Shown one piece after another: positions 53,660 through 59,435 of a stretch of DNA of 64,000 nt. The stretch spans positions 1-64,000 of the forward strand of contig PLZW01000035.1 in assembly GCA_003153575.1 (NCBI GenBank), in the 5' to 3' direction. How positions within the stretch are numbered: the first letter of the stretch is position 1; each line of letters opens with the position of its first letter. The notes below the pieces were generated by a model that saw nothing but the letters and a program-made list of their open reading frames with translations, was not told the DNA's origin and did not search any database. This DNA is from Acidimicrobiaceae bacterium (GTDB taxonomy: Bacteria; Actinomycetota; Acidimicrobiia; Acidimicrobiales; RAAP-2). A program made the translations under genes and the position numbers.

Positions 53660-54184
53660 TCAGTCCCGGGTGCTCGCCGCGCCGTGCGCCGCAGGCACCC
53701 GGCAGGCGCCGTCGATGTCGAACACCTGGTTGAAGCGACCGAGGGCCAGCCACGAGCCGACGCACAGGGCCAGGTCGACCAGTTCGTCGTCGGTGTAGGC
53801 GTTGTGGCACCGGTCCCAGAACGCCGCGTCCATACTCAGGTGGTCGGTGGCGTAGCGCCGGGCGAACTCTGCAGCCAGTCGCTCGCGTTCGGTCAGCGCG
53901 GCGTCGTCGCCGGATCCGACCGCCGCATAGTACGACTCGGGCACCTCGTCGGCCGCCGCCCCCCGGGACGGGACGTCGCGTGCAGTCCGCCAGTCCAGGC
54001 AGAGCGCACACTGGTTGATGCGGGCCATGGTGATGCGGGCCGCCTCGAACTCCCGCAGCGACAGGCTCGAGTGCTCGTAGACGGCGCTGGAGTACCCGGC
54101 CGCCGCCGACGTCAGCGGCGGCGCCAGCGCCGTCCATACGTGGATCAGGGGATCCGAGGCAGCGGGGACGGTCACGTTGGGCAT
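53660..54184 (-). CDS. AhpD/carboxymuconolactone decarboxylase-like protein
   Basis: ARITMARINQCALCLDWRT...LTERERLAAEFA...FNQVFDID. Confidence 0.8.
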   Translation of the reverse strand: MPNVTVPAASDPLIHVWTALAPPLTSAAAGYSSAVYEHSSLSLREFEAARITMARINQCALCLDWRTARDVPSRGAAADEVPESYYAAVGSGDDAALTERERLAAEFARRYATDHLSMDAAFWDRCHNAYTDDELVDLALCVGSWLALGRFNQVFDIDGACRVPAAHGAASTRD

Positions 54185-54230
54185 CAGGTCCTCCTCGACG
54201 GTCGGCCGCGTCGGACGGGCGACTGCCCGG

Positions 54231-54593
54231 TCACGATCCGGCGGCGGCGGGCAGCCGACGGATGACCCGTCCGGCCAGCCCGGACACATACTGCTCCCAC
54301 CGCCGGTCGCCCAGCAGCCAGAGCCACAGCTCGCGGCGGTCGGCTACGACGATGTCGACGAACTCCTCACGCGAGCACCCGGCCGGCTCCAACGCGGGCT
54401 GCCACAGGCTCCACAGCAGGACGCCGATGCAGATGTCGTCGCTGAACCCCTCGCGCCAGTCGCCTCCGGCCAGCAGGGCGTCGCGCAGCCCGACCCGCAG
54501 GGCCTCGGGCTCCTCGGGGAACTCGAGTCTGGGGCCCTGGGTCGGCTCGATGCGTTCCTCGACGTCGGTCACCGGCACCACGCTACCCCGCAC
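54231..54593 (-). CDS. Hypothetical protein
   Basis: Open frame, 120 aa, same strand as neighbours. Confidence 0.45.
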   Translation of the reverse strand: MRGSVVPVTDVEERIEPTQGPRLEFPEEPEALRVGLRDALLAGGDWREGFSDDICIGVLLWSLWQPALEPAGCSREEFVDIVVADRRELWLWLLGDRRWEQYVSGLAGRVIRRLPAAAGS

Positions 54594-54610: not shown

Positions 54611-55888
54611 TCAGCGGTCGGCGACGACCGGGGCCCGGTCGGTGCCCTCGTAGGTGGCCACGTGCTCGGCGTAGTCGATGAACAGGGGCGCGTCGGGGTC
54701 GAAGGGGCGACGCAGGCTGTCGAAGGCCACCCGCTTGTCGAACGCGTCCAGCTTGACCAGGGCCTCAGGGCTGTCGAGCTCCCGGAAGTCGAGGCGGCCG
54801 CGGGCGTTGTCGAGGGCCCGGTGCCCCCGCTCGGTCCGCACCAGCACACTGCTCCAGCCGTCGATCGCCCCCACGCTGCCGATCGACAGGTCGGCGCTGC
54901 GACCGAGGAAGTCGGCACACTCGTCGCAGCCCTTCAAGGCGGCACCGTGGAAGTTCTTGATGGGCTCGTCCACGGCCAGCTCGCCGTCGCGGTACTCGAC
55001 GATCATCTTGCCTCGGATCACGTCCACCTTGGAGACCCGGTCGATGTCGATGCCGCGGTCCTTCTGGAGCAGGTCGAGCATCAGGCCGCGATAGTCGAAG
55101 CTCTTGGTGCACAACAGGGCGATGGTGAGCACCACGGCGTCGATGCGGTGGGCGCCCGACGGCCAGCGGCGGGCCTGCATGGCCCGGATGCCCTGGATCT
55201 CGCACGGCGTACCGACCACGGCGATCTTCGGCTTGGCCGGCAGGTCGTAACGGGACAGGTCCAGCTCGGCCAGAGCCATGGTCTGGTTGTAGTAGCTGCC
55301 CGCCGCGTCGGTGATCTCCTTGGCCGTGGTGGCCAGGTGGGAGACGCCCTTCCAGGGCTCCTCGGGATCGTCGCTCGGGCGGGTGACCACGGCTCCGTCG
55401 ATATCGCCGGCGGCCAGGGCGGCGATCAGCAGGGCCGACACCACCCCGCCGTCCTGGGCCCCGTCCGCCCGAGCCCCGGCCCGCACGGAATAGGCCTCGG
55501 TGACGGCACCCAGTCCGTCGCCCGGGGGACCCCCGGTGATCTTCCAGTAGGTGTCGGACGCGTCGACCCGTTCGACCGAGGAGGCGGCCACCTCGTCGGC
55601 GGTGGCCCCGGGCATGATCGTCGAGGGTGGCCACAAGGCCTCGTAGCGGAGCCCACCGCGGGGGCAAAAGTCCCAGCAGAGCGAGCAGCCCGTGCACATC
55701 TTGACCAGCTCGGGCAAGTCGGTGTCCTCGTCGACGCCGATGGAGTTCGACGGGCACGCGGCCACGCACGTGCCGCACTGGATGCACCGCCCGGCGTCGA
55801 TGACGCCCGCCTGCAGCTCGAAGAACCAGGTCTTGCCCGGCGGCTCCTCGATCCCGTTGATCTCCTGGCGGATCCGGTAGGCCTTCAC
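54611..55888 (-). CDS. FrhB/FpoF-like coenzyme F420 oxidoreductase beta subunit with N-terminal 2x[4Fe-4S] ferredoxin domain
   Basis: CIQCGTCVAACP and CTGCSLCWDFCP; QDGGVVSALL; VVGTPCEIQGIRAM; LLCTKSFDY; KGCDECADFLGRSADLSIGSVG. Confidence 0.85.
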   Translation of the reverse strand: MKAYRIRQEINGIEEPPGKTWFFELQAGVIDAGRCIQCGTCVAACPSNSIGVDEDTDLPELVKMCTGCSLCWDFCPRGGLRYEALWPPSTIMPGATADEVAASSVERVDASDTYWKITGGPPGDGLGAVTEAYSVRAGARADGAQDGGVVSALLIAALAAGDIDGAVVTRPSDDPEEPWKGVSHLATTAKEITDAAGSYYNQTMALAELDLSRYDLPAKPKIAVVGTPCEIQGIRAMQARRWPSGAHRIDAVVLTIALLCTKSFDYRGLMLDLLQKDRGIDIDRVSKVDVIRGKMIVEYRDGELAVDEPIKNFHGAALKGCDECADFLGRSADLSIGSVGAIDGWSSVLVRTERGHRALDNARGRLDFRELDSPEALVKLDAFDKRVAFDSLRRPFDPDAPLFIDYAEHVATYEGTDRAPVVADR

Positions 55889-57675
55889 GAGGCACCGCCC
55901 GGCTTCGTGGTGAGGGCGACCGGGGTGCCGGTCCCCTCGGCTGCCAAGGTGGTCCGCAACTCGTCGTTCGGGACCCGGCGGGCCCAGTTGTAGAACGGCT
56001 CGTCGGCACGGCGCTCGGACTGGTAGCGGCGCACCACCCGAAGTAGTGCGTCGGGCACGTCATTGACGGGGCGGGCGTTCTCGATCCAGTCGATGAAGCC
56101 GGCGTCGGCCCCGAGCGAGCCCCCCATCCCGATGTCCACCCCTTCGGCCAGGTGGTTGCCCACCTTGGCGACGTCGCCCCGGAACCCGATGTCGGCGATC
56201 TGGGGCTGGGCGCAGCTGGCCGAGCAGCCCGAGAAGTGCATCCGGATGATGCCGGCGTCCTCACCCTTGGGCGAGTACCCGCCCGGTGTGGGGGCCGCAC
56301 CCACCGGCTCGCCGGCCAGCTGGTCGTCGAGGAACCGGGCCCACTTGACGGCGCGCTCCTTGGTCTCGACGATGGCGTAGCGGCAGAACTCTGACCCGGT
56401 GCAGGCCACGACGCCCCGGCTGAACGGCCCGGGGAAGGGCGAGTATTTGGCCAGGAGGTCCTCGGCCAGCAGCGCGTCGACGTTGTTGCCGTGGACACCG
56501 GTCAACGTGAAGTTCTGGTCGGTGCCCAGCCGCAGGGTGCCGTCCCCGTAGGTTTCGGCCAGCCGGGCCACCTCGACCAGCTCCATGCCCTGCATGCGTC
56601 CGACCGGGACGGAACAGCCGACGTAGAAGAAGCCGTCCTCCTTCTGGCGGTGCACACCCACGTGGTCGCCCCGGTAACGGCGGGTCAGCTCCACACCGGC
56701 CGGGACCAGGTCGAATCCGGCCCTCTTGGCCAGCTCGTCCCGGAAGCCCTCGGGGCCGAGCTCCTGGACCAGGTAACGCATGCGGGCCAGGCCCCGGTTC
56801 TCGCGGTTGCCGAGCTCGCCGAAGAGCTGCGCGATGGCCCGGGTGACCTCGACCGCCTGGTCCTGGGCCACGAACACGTCGATGTCCGAGGCCATCCGCT
56901 CGCCGTCGGACAGCCCGCCGCCGACCAGCAGGTTGAAACCGAGGGAGCCGTCACCGGCCCGGGCCGGCCACAGGCCGATGTCGTTGATCTCGGCCTGGGC
57001 GCAGTCCTCGAGGCAGCCCGACACCGAGATCTTGAACTTCCGGGGCAGGTTGGCGTACTCGCGGTTGCCGGTGAAGAACGCCGACACGGCACGGGCCACG
57101 GGAAGGGCGTCGAAGGCCTCGTCGGCGTCCACCCCTGCGACGGGGCAGCACAGGACGTTCCTGGCCGAGTCGCCGCAGGCCTGCACGGTGGTGAGGCCGA
57201 CGGCTGCGAACCGGCGCCAGATGCGGGGGATGTCCTCGATCCGCAGCCAGTGGATCTGGATGGTCTGGCGGGTGGTGATGTCGGCGTACCGGGACCCGAA
57301 CATCCGCGACTCGGTGCCGTCGGGACCCTCGCCGAAGGCGTCGGCGGTGACGCCGATCTCGCAGGCCTGCGGAGCGGTCAGGAAGCCCCCTGGCACCTTG
57401 ACTCGCATCATGAAGGCGTCGCCCCCCTGCTTCTGGGGGTAGATGCCGGCCCACTTCAGGCGTTCGACCTCGCCCGGCACCTTGGCGATGCCGGCCGGAC
57501 CCTCCTTCGAGTAGGTGTCGATGATGGCGTCGGCGATCTCGAGGGGGTGGCGTGCCAGCTTGAGCAGCTCGATCTCGTTGAGCTCCCCCGTCGTCCGGTA
57601 GGGGTTGACGAACGGCATCGGGCGGTCCGTCCCGCGCAGGTTCAGCCCGTAGAGCTCGTCGCGGTCCTTGGTCAT
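55885..57675 (-). CDS. Siroheme [4Fe-4S] sulfite/nitrite reductase (sulfite reductase by context)
   Basis: CTGSEFCRYAIVETKE and FSGCSASCAQPQIADIG cluster motifs; ATGA overlap with FrhB-like gene. Confidence 0.88.
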   Translation of the reverse strand: MTKDRDELYGLNLRGTDRPMPFVNPYRTTGELNEIELLKLARHPLEIADAIIDTYSKEGPAGIAKVPGEVERLKWAGIYPQKQGGDAFMMRVKVPGGFLTAPQACEIGVTADAFGEGPDGTESRMFGSRYADITTRQTIQIHWLRIEDIPRIWRRFAAVGLTTVQACGDSARNVLCCPVAGVDADEAFDALPVARAVSAFFTGNREYANLPRKFKISVSGCLEDCAQAEINDIGLWPARAGDGSLGFNLLVGGGLSDGERMASDIDVFVAQDQAVEVTRAIAQLFGELGNRENRGLARMRYLVQELGPEGFRDELAKRAGFDLVPAGVELTRRYRGDHVGVHRQKEDGFFYVGCSVPVGRMQGMELVEVARLAETYGDGTLRLGTDQNFTLTGVHGNNVDALLAEDLLAKYSPFPGPFSRGVVACTGSEFCRYAIVETKERAVKWARFLDDQLAGEPVGAAPTPGGYSPKGEDAGIIRMHFSGCSASCAQPQIADIGFRGDVAKVGNHLAEGVDIGMGGSLGADAGFIDWIENARPVNDVPDALLRVVRRYQSERRADEPFYNWARRVPNDELRTTLAAEGTGTPVALTTKPGGAS

Positions 57676-57692
57676 CTCAACAACCGATCATG

Positions 57693-58409
57693 TTAGACGT
57701 GGAGCCCGCATTCGACCTTGTCGGAGTCGGCCCACCGTCCGGCCCGCAGGTCCTCCCCCTCGGCCACCGGCCGGGTGGTCGGGGCGCACCCGATGGACAC
57801 GTAGCCCTGGGAGCGCAACGGGTGCTGGGGGACGTCGTGGTCGACGGCGTAGCCCACCAGGTCCTGATGGGTCCACGTGGCCAGCGGGTTGATCTTCACC
57901 ATGCCCCAGCTGTCGTCGTAGGCCACGATCGGCGCGTGGCGCCGGGTCGGGGCGTCCGAACGCTTCAGCCCCGTCACCCATCCGTCCTTGCCGGACATGG
58001 CGGCCCGCAGGGGGCGGACCTTGCGGAACTCGCAGCACTGCGCGGTCCCGCACGGATGGGCCTCGGCCCCGGCGATCGGATGGGCGATCGTGAGATTCAG
58101 GTCGTAACGCGACCGGACGGCCTCCACGTACTCGAGCGTCTCATCGAAGTGGGAGCCGGTGTCGAGGAAGATCACTTCGATGTCCGGTTCGACGGCCACG
58201 GCGATATCGATCAGCACCGCCTCCTGGAACGAGCACGACATGGCGAGCTTGGGTCCGAACCGCTCCACGGCCCAGGCCACGATGAGCCCGGCGGGTGCCG
58301 TTTCGAAGGCGAGCGACTGTTCAGTCATCTCGGTGCGCAACCGCGAGATCGCAGGATCGATCGCCAGCTCGGCCAGCCTCGTCCGGTTGTCCACCACGCT
58401 CAGCTTCAC
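57693..58409 (-). CDS. cysH: APS/PAPS reductase with [4Fe-4S]-type cysteines
   Basis: LAMSCSFQEAVLIDIAV; FLDTGSHFDET; CGTAQCCEFRKVRPL; YVSIGCAPTTRPV...ECGLH. Confidence 0.9.
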   Translation of the reverse strand: MKLSVVDNRTRLAELAIDPAISRLRTEMTEQSLAFETAPAGLIVAWAVERFGPKLAMSCSFQEAVLIDIAVAVEPDIEVIFLDTGSHFDETLEYVEAVRSRYDLNLTIAHPIAGAEAHPCGTAQCCEFRKVRPLRAAMSGKDGWVTGLKRSDAPTRRHAPIVAYDDSWGMVKINPLATWTHQDLVGYAVDHDVPQHPLRSQGYVSIGCAPTTRPVAEGEDLRAGRWADSDKVECGLHV

Positions 58410-58673: not shown

Positions 58674-59435
58674 GTGGACAGCATCTCGGCGACCTCGGGC
58701 CGCCGCTCGCACCACGCCATCAATTCGATCCCCATGGCCCCCACCCCCACCTCCAGCCCCGGCCCGGGCCACCCCGCCTCCGAGCGCCCGCCGGCCTTTC
58801 CCGTGGAAGTCGTCCTCGATGGGGCCTCGTGCCTGGTAGTGGGGGCGGGGCCCGTAGGAGCCCGCAAGGCCCGCGGCCTGCTGGCGTCCGGCGCCCGGGT
58901 GACCGTCGTCGCCCCTCGGATCGGTGCCCACATGAAGGCGCTGGCCGCCGACCCGTCGCCGGGCACGCTCGTCGTCGAGGTGCGACCCTACCGGTCCCCC
59001 GAAGCGGCGGACCACCTCCTGGTGGTGTCGGCTACCGGGGACCCGGCCGTCGACGCCGTGGTGGCCGCCGACGCCGTAGCCGCTGGAACGCTGGTCAACC
59101 GGGCCGACTCGGGGGGCGACGGCACGGGGCCCACAGCCGGGTCGGTGCGATTCCCCGGCGTCCACCGCGACGGCCCGGTCACTCTGACCGTGTCCACCGC
59201 CGGGTCCGGACCGGCGTTGGCACTGTGGCTGCGGGCCCGTGCCGCGGCTGCCCTCGGACCAGATGTCGCCTTGCTGGCCCGGCTCGTCGCCGAGGCTCGC
59301 ACGGCCCTGCAGGACACCGGTCGGGCCACGGATTCGATTGACTGGGGTCCCGTCCTCGACGAGGTCGCCCCCTTGGTGGCTGAGGGACGCCTCGACGAGG
59401 CCCGTCGCTCGTTGGCGCGCCTGACCGGTGTCTGA
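58674..59435 (+). CDS. Precorrin-2 dehydrogenase / siroheme synthase N-terminal-type protein
   Basis: FPVEVVLDGASCLVVGAGPVGARKARGLLASGARVTVVAP...GTLVNRAD...GSVRFPGVHRDGPVTLTVSTAGSGPALALWLR. Confidence 0.85.
   Translation: MDSISATSGRRSHHAINSIPMAPTPTSSPGPGHPASERPPAFPVEVVLDGASCLVVGAGPVGARKARGLLASGARVTVVAPRIGAHMKALAADPSPGTLVVEVRPYRSPEAADHLLVVSATGDPAVDAVVAADAVAAGTLVNRADSGGDGTGPTAGSVRFPGVHRDGPVTLTVSTAGSGPALALWLRARAAAALGPDVALLARLVAEARTALQDTGRATDSIDWGPVLDEVAPLVAEGRLDEARRSLARLTGV

Follow-up and report, generated by a model that had tools for sequence, protein, structure and literature searches.

A candidate two-polypeptide F420H2-dependent assimilatory sulfite reductase in uncultured Acidimicrobiia

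The closest described relative of the system reported here is aFsr, a putative assimilatory F420H2-dependent sulfite reductase that was proposed for haloarchaea by Susanti and Mukhopadhyay in 2012 (PMC3448663), in a study whose trees of the FrhB-like subunit already hold Rubrobacter xylanophilus and Thermobaculum terrenum. The two-gene architecture has been known under that name since then, and the idea put forward in the first-pass annotation of this DNA is therefore not new (PMC3448663). In the literature we found no activity data or biochemical report for any member of aFsr. A 2021 review of F420 gives the F420-oxidoreductase family to which the FrhB-like subunit belongs for Euryarchaeota only (PMC8498797), and a survey of the same year describes the role of F420 in haloarchaea as "enigmatic", with one F420-dependent reaction reported (PMC8305020). 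New here are the breadth of aFsr in Acidimicrobiia, the position of its actinobacterial branch, nested inside the haloarchaeal ones, and a conserved small gene, ORF120.

The sulfite reductase locus

The window, that is, the whole 64,000-nucleotide stretch analysed, holds the following genes:

54231-54593, minus strand: ORF120, third module gene, encoding a small conserved helical protein (alignment)
54611-55888, minus strand: beta, FrhB/FpoF-like F420H2 dehydrogenase subunit, predicted, 425 aa (Pfam and profile matches)
55885-57675, minus strand: alpha, predicted siroheme sulfite reductase, NirA/SirA fold, 596 aa
57693-58409, minus strand: CysH, phosphoadenylyl-/adenylyl-sulfate reductase, 238 aa (PRK02090, PF01507)
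58674-59435, plus strand: precorrin-2 dehydrogenase (Met8 / CysG N-terminal domain), siroheme synthesis (TIGR01470)

CysH scores 230 bits against a PRK02090 cut-off of 154 and matches PF01507 with an E value of 1e-39, and its gene ends 17 nt before the start of alpha. The precorrin-2 dehydrogenase (89 bits, TIGR01470 cut-off 62.3) is divergent from cysH and is the same neighbour in many relatives. The coordinates bear out the first-pass annotation in placing cysH, alpha and beta in one minus-strand cluster, and both ferredoxin motifs that it read in beta are complete (CX2CX2CX3CP; C35/38/41/45 and C65/68/71/75). The claimed overlap of alpha and beta is present, at 4 nt, but its letters are GTGA rather than ATGA, the GTG start of beta lying over the TGA stop of alpha.

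In most actinobacterial loci, those of Rubrobacter among them, ORF120 follows beta on its 3' side, often with a 4-nt overlap; no haloarchaeal pair was seen to have it as a neighbour. Residues W64, E88, W92, G95, G108 and R112 are invariant in an alignment of 38 sequences. The protein has no Pfam match, and its confident AF2 model (pLDDT 85) found no structural match in the PDB; a relative carries this domain at the front of a PAPS_reduct/CysD-like protein (L034:2811-4127). ORF120 may be an accessory factor of alpha-beta.

The beta subunit and its proposed electron donor

Beta is composed of an N-terminal 2x[4Fe-4S] ferredoxin domain followed by a FAD/[4Fe-4S] FrhB core, with Pfam matches to FrhB_FdhB_N (E 1e-18) and FrhB_FdhB_C (E 4e-36). 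Comparison with the FAD loop, cluster and F420-site loop described for F420-using FrhB proteins (PMC3591093, PMC3930138) reveals no loss of F420-binding residues, which would have spoken against the first-pass reading: beta retains the F420-type FAD, cluster-1 and F420-loop motifs, namely QDGG (145-148), RGK (292-294), the GSVG loop (337-340) and the cluster-1 cysteines C229/C260/C321/C324, and such motifs are kept in 78 to 80 of 80 betas. Lys75 of FrhB, near the FAD, is Tyr or Phe in beta, a position that is also variable in the F420-using structures 8riu and 8rja. An AF2 model of beta built from 18 close homologs was of low confidence (pLDDT 58); a fold search with it returned F420-CODH, FrhB and Fsr first and HCAR after, but with low TM-scores, so that we rely on sequence instead.

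Regarding the cofactor, both FbiC (CofGH) and CofD are encoded in the genome, which makes the host a putative F420 maker and answers the concern that biosynthesis genes might be missing. As F420 genes occur in 60 of 61 genomes of the order, with or without the alpha-beta pair, their presence is necessary yet non-discriminating, and we dropped it as positive evidence. Among the 31 paired genomes, two Rubrobacter MAGs (G348 and G352) have both CofD and CofH below cut-off, possibly through genome incompleteness. Neither an F420:NADP reductase nor an F420-dependent G6P dehydrogenase was found in the genome, and the source of F420H2, for which no regenerating enzyme was found, counts against our preferred explanation.

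The ferredoxin-dependent chlorophyll-reductase relatives HCAR and BciB belong to the FrhB fold, whose members outside the F420 group use ferredoxin. Beta might accordingly be a dedicated adaptor that, like HCAR, receives its electrons from reduced ferredoxin (or a different low-potential carrier), with F420 uninvolved. The ferredoxin dependence of ordinary NirA/SirA enzymes, the 2x[4Fe-4S] domain of beta itself and the missing F420H2 regeneration would all suit such an adaptor. We nevertheless regard it as unlikely, as the betas form one clade (100/100) clearly separate from HCAR/BciB and carry QDGG and a GSVGS loop where HCAR/BciB have QWTG and GYMG, neither of which is found in beta. Furthermore, the beta profile has F420 enzymes as its best PDB matches, at 123-165 bits (F420-CODH subunit 165, Fsr 156, FrhB 132), versus 33 for HCAR, and an additional adaptor seems superfluous for a SirA that is already ferredoxin-dependent.

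Pairing with alpha across two domains of life

All 77 testable named loci of Acidimicrobiia and Rubrobacter (those of the 80 named loci with upstream DNA present) have alpha immediately upstream of beta, and 57 of 84 pairs show an overlap of exactly 4 nt. On haloarchaeal plasmids alpha is directly 5' of beta in six of seven cases, the remaining plasmid carrying beta with no alpha nearby. This pairing is far beyond chance, and in these 77 loci the FrhB homolog stands beside the sulfite reductase, not with unrelated enzymes. The phylogeny of both proteins agrees with this picture: the paired alphas form a single clade (SH-aLRT 98.7), from which a careful tree splits the unpaired rows at 100/97, and both window subunits fall in one clade with the haloarchaeal pairs, pointing to a common origin with aFsr. 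Identity between haloarchaeal and window pairs is 47-52% for alpha and 42-53% for beta; Haloferax-type betas bear an N-terminal extension. The sulfur context of the pairs comprises cysH, precorrin-2 dehydrogenase and CysD/CysN-like genes or ATP sulfurylase. Cultivated carriers include Haloferax mediterranei and Rubrobacter taiwanensis.

A second FrhB paralog (about 36% identity to beta) is present in nearly all members of the order. It was rejected as part of the same system, since it forms a separate clade near FrhB, and in the two contexts read it is flanked by formamidopyrimidine-DNA glycosylase and histidine phosphatase. FpoF-type proteins can work alone with ferredoxin and F420. Beta could thus be a ferredoxin:F420 oxidoreductase merely co-regulated with alpha, which would take its electrons directly from ferredoxin, a scheme that would suit the unexplained F420H2 supply and the haloarchaeal plasmid with beta only. 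We consider this very improbable, because the invariant adjacency of alpha in two domains of life, together with the single paired-alpha clade, argues for a complex, and such a role would fall more readily to the second paralog.

Alpha matches NIR_SIR (E 4e-53) and NIR_SIR_ferr (E 7e-35), has tobacco nitrite reductase and M. tuberculosis NirA as its closest solved relatives, and is the only NIR_SIR protein that a search with this domain found in the genome. It holds the sulfite/siroheme residues R136, R172, K213 and K215 and the cluster ligands C425, C431, C484 and C488 (CX5C...CX3C). The sulfite-type Y79, C167 and K-x-K are found in every paired alpha examined, whereas nasA-linked nitrite reductases and tobacco NiR show F, G and K-x-N at the corresponding sites; one row of this residue table, Nonomuraea, is out of frame there and in frame in the trees only. 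These hallmarks of assimilatory nitrite reductases (NasD/plant NiR), including a nas context, are absent from alpha and its locus. Alpha is thus supported as a predicted assimilatory-type siroheme sulfite reductase with the NirA/SirA fold. The reading of the pair as a nitrite reductase that uses F420H2 and serves to assimilate nitrogen or to detoxify, favoured by the top NCBIfam and PDB names for alpha and by the precedent of FsrII from ANME-2c, shown to be an F420H2-dependent nitrite reductase (PMC9295563), was rejected and is the least credible of the alternatives, given these residues, the cysH/precorrin-2 dehydrogenase/ATP sulfurylase context, the fusion of Natrialbaceae alphas to two rhodanese domains, and the separate nasA-linked NirA that accompanies the pair in Haladaptatus pallidirubidus.

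Proposed function and comparison with known systems

All together, these data lead us to propose that the operon probably encodes a two-polypeptide F420H2-dependent assimilatory sulfite reductase, an actinobacterial aFsr. The FAD of beta would take a hydride from F420H2, and single electrons would travel by way of the core [4Fe-4S] cluster and the pair of N-terminal ferredoxin clusters into alpha. At the siroheme-[4Fe-4S] centre of that subunit, sulfite made by CysH would receive six electrons to yield sulfide for cysteine synthesis. Beta would in this way substitute for the ferredoxin/FNR or NADPH flavoprotein of ordinary assimilatory reductases. Of the split F420H2:sulfite reductase on an assimilatory-type enzyme that the first-pass annotation envisaged, the architecture, motifs and sulfite-type residues hold, while the use of F420H2, as well as the physical complex and the electron path, is what we infer.

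As the sulfite reductase gene is always followed by that of a type of subunit which takes electrons from F420 in methanogenic archaea, these actinobacteria probably use F420 for sulfite reduction, and many soil and lake actinobacteria would then probably employ it in a core nutrient pathway. Whether F420H2 is the dedicated donor of assimilatory sulfate reduction across Acidimicrobiia and Rubrobacter, through an enzyme acquired from haloarchaea to which ORF120 was added in bacteria, we judge an even question. If true, Acidimicrobiia of peat, permafrost and lakes would need F420 for sulfur assimilation, which would extend this cofactor in bacteria beyond peripheral redox chemistry into core nutrient assimilation; the F420 claim is testable in cultivated carriers.

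With FpoF/FqoF and the zeta subunit of F420-CODH (PDB 8RIU), beta shares the organization of a separate F420-active subunit with an N-terminal ferredoxin domain, but those proteins serve a membrane complex I-like enzyme or CODH instead of a sulfite reductase. Alpha resembles M. tuberculosis NirA/SirA (PDB 1ZJ8) in fold, cluster and siroheme residues, and the Tyr/Cys near the siroheme; the annotated unpaired homologs examined, however, have no adjacent FrhB-like subunit and fall outside the paired clade. Fsr has the same proposed function, and its F420H2-oxidase half is built alike, from an N-terminal 2x[4Fe-4S] domain, a FAD and a core cluster. It is, however, one polypeptide, and in its reductase half a single dSir-related repeat bears an inserted ferredoxin domain, whereas the window system consists of two genes with a two-repeat aSir-type reductase. 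The fused Dsr-type layout of group I Fsr is absent here, alpha is only weakly similar to Fsr (E 2e-8), and the second ferredoxin motif is complete, with four Cys, in beta and FpoF/FqoF, but not in Fsr. The likeness is to aFsr, with its separate linked genes for an aSir-type alpha and an Fsr-N/FpoF-like beta, from whose haloarchaeal form the window pair differs in standing beside cysH and precorrin-2 dehydrogenase, in being followed by ORF120, and in belonging to uncultured Acidimicrobiia.

Gene order in the window

In the first-pass annotation, cysH, a siroheme reductase and an FrhB-like protein had been assigned to one minus-strand cluster at 54611-58409, and the domain matches agree with this arrangement.

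58674-59435, divergent from the cysH cluster: precorrin-2 dehydrogenase (siroheme synthesis)
57693-58409, minus strand: cysH, with a PAPS_reduct domain
55885-57675, minus strand: alpha, the siroheme reductase (596 aa), with NIR_SIR and NIR_SIR_ferr domains
54611-55888, minus strand: beta, the FrhB-like protein (425 aa), with FrhB_FdhB_N and FrhB_FdhB_C domains and two [4Fe-4S] ferredoxin motifs
54231-54593, minus strand: ORF120, a small protein following beta, without a Pfam family

The overlap of alpha and beta, described at first as ATGA, is instead the four bases GTGA. In most actinobacterial loci ORF120 comes after beta, in many cases overlapping it by 4 nt, and its conservation extends to Rubrobacter; its structural model is confident and all-helical, with no match in the PDB. 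In one relative (L034:2811-4127) an ORF120 domain is found N-terminal to a PAPS_reduct (CysD-like) domain. Our guess is that ORF120 assists sulfate assimilation, perhaps in assembly or scaffolding. The protein at 53660-54289 (minus strand) matches carboxymuconolactone decarboxylase weakly (E 0.002, under the cut-off) and adjoins ORF120 in close relatives only.

CysH (57693-58409, minus strand) has the cysteine pattern C120-x4-C125-C126 plus a single C208. The CxxC usual in assimilatory APS reductases is replaced by C-A-P-T in 48 of 63 relatives, and an additional Cys five residues before the CC is kept in 97%, a pattern that possibly reflects an altered [4Fe-4S] ligand set.

Distribution and descent of the pair

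Of the 37 family genomes searched, 30 encode a beta ortholog, strongly diverged in one case; in the wider class the gene is rare (7 of 296 sampled genomes). Scanning a genome collection produced 210 relatives. The best 80 were retained, and they belong to Acidimicrobiia of peat, permafrost, soil and lakes and to several Rubrobacter, the isolate R. taiwanensis among them. Wherever the locus includes DNA upstream of beta (77 loci; the remaining 3 of the 80 start at or within beta at a contig end), the next gene upstream is alpha, and 57 of 84 pairs overlap by exactly 4 nt. Beta is also present on seven haloarchaeal plasmids (41-53% identity), and alpha adjoins it on six: those of Haloferax mediterranei, Salinirubellus, two Haladaptatus, Natronococcus and Halomontanus. 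On the Halopiger plasmid no alpha was found near beta. The Haloferax-type betas (L151:6479-7000, L152:6482-7000) carry a Cys- and charge-rich N-terminal extension of ~170 aa with no Pfam match.

When unpaired homologs are included in the tree, all paired alphas group together in a single clade (SH-aLRT 98.7), with haloarchaeal reductases as the closest unpaired rows; a careful tree that omits the longest branches separates paired from unpaired rows at 100/97. The actinobacterial alphas (100/98) are nested within the haloarchaeal ones. This inner order recurs among the betas, which make up one clade (100/100): Natrialbaceae outermost, then the Haloferax-type, then actinobacteria. Both trees fit a single origin of the pairing and a transfer from haloarchaea to actinobacteria, which would remain provisional as to direction, the haloarchaeal sampling being plasmid-borne only and too thin for it.

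Two further loci deserve mention. A strongly diverged pair (L166:4181-7490, minus strand, genome G035; about 42-46% identity) adjoins ORFs resembling uroporphyrinogen-III methyltransferase and precorrin-2 dehydrogenase, and an Acidimicrobiia-type pair (L097) lies on a contig titled Candidatus Saccharibacteria, a record that is probably mislabelled or contaminated.

Substrate and cofactor residues

Alpha contains the basic residues R136, R172, K213 and K215, which in this family lie at the sulfite and siroheme, and the cluster ligands C425, C431, C484 and C488. Three positions split sulfite from nitrite enzymes in the compared set, namely Y79, C167 and the second Lys of Lys-x-Lys. Y79 and C167 are also found in M. 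tuberculosis NirA, whereas tobacco nitrite reductase and three haloarchaeal enzymes encoded beside nasA have Phe and Gly in their place and Lys-x-Asn for Lys-x-Lys. The sulfite-type residues occur in every paired alpha of the residue table, plus one unpaired haloarchaeal homolog, and Haladaptatus pallidirubidus has the pair plus a separate nasA-linked enzyme. On the Natronococcus and Halomontanus plasmids two rhodanese domains are fused to alpha, beside beta (L154:4544-6943, L156:4302-6842); clusters of relatives also hold CysD- and CysN-like genes, and in Rubrobacter an ATP sulfurylase immediately follows ORF120. In the window genome (76% completeness), no NIR_SIR protein was found besides alpha.

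Against solved structures, the beta profile scored 165 bits with the F420-reducing CODH subunit, 148-157 with Fsr (the fused enzyme of methanogens), 148 with the F420-reducing formylmethanofuran dehydrogenase subunit, 123-132 with FrhB and 33 with the chlorophyll reductase HCAR. Among the best 80 betas, 78 to 80 keep the QDGG that binds FAD, the four cysteines of cluster 1 (C229, C260, C321 and C324, corresponding to FrhB Cys104/134/192/195) and the GSVGS loop adjoining the proposed F420 site; HCAR and a photosynthetic BciB-type protein carry QWTG and GYMG instead. As F420 was not seen bound with certainty in the structure papers used for comparison, the F420 residues are only partly defined.

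F420 supply and known systems

A check of the genome for F420 biosynthesis genes, as called for at first pass, found both FbiC and CofD. CofD is above the cut-off in 26 of 31 paired genomes, the other five being four MAGs of Rubrobacter and one of Acidimicrobiaceae that matches in part; in the Rubrobacter MAGs G348 and G352, neither CofD nor CofH is above it. Since CofD occurs in 60 of 61 members of the order, with or without the pair, the F420 genes are permissive for the F420 reading rather than supporting it. The window genome yielded no F420:NADP oxidoreductase, and an F420-dependent G6P dehydrogenase was found neither there nor in four close relatives. A second FrhB paralog (~36% identity to beta; L158, L159, L167 and others), flanked by formamidopyrimidine-DNA glycosylase and histidine phosphatase where the context was read, is present in nearly all Acidimicrobiales genomes searched and was not found in the window genome; that it might be a source of F420H2 is pure speculation. 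For the pair itself, F420H2 is a putative electron donor that we regard as quite probable.

The original reading as a split sulfite reductase of F420 type was largely right, but it is not new. In 2012 Susanti & Mukhopadhyay (PMC3448663) anticipated it by describing the same architecture in haloarchaea under the name aFsr, a putative assimilatory sulfite reductase that would depend on F420H2. Their beta homologs include a Rubrobacter xylanophilus and a Thermobaculum sequence, and the idea recurs in an alignment legend of PMC9295563. In the open-access literature we found no report of aFsr activity and no description from Acidimicrobiia. The architecture having been published, the window pair is a member of that putative kind; Fsr proper is ruled out by architecture. 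The second ferredoxin motif of Fsr is without its second Cys, whereas both motifs of beta are complete, as they are in FpoF/FqoF.
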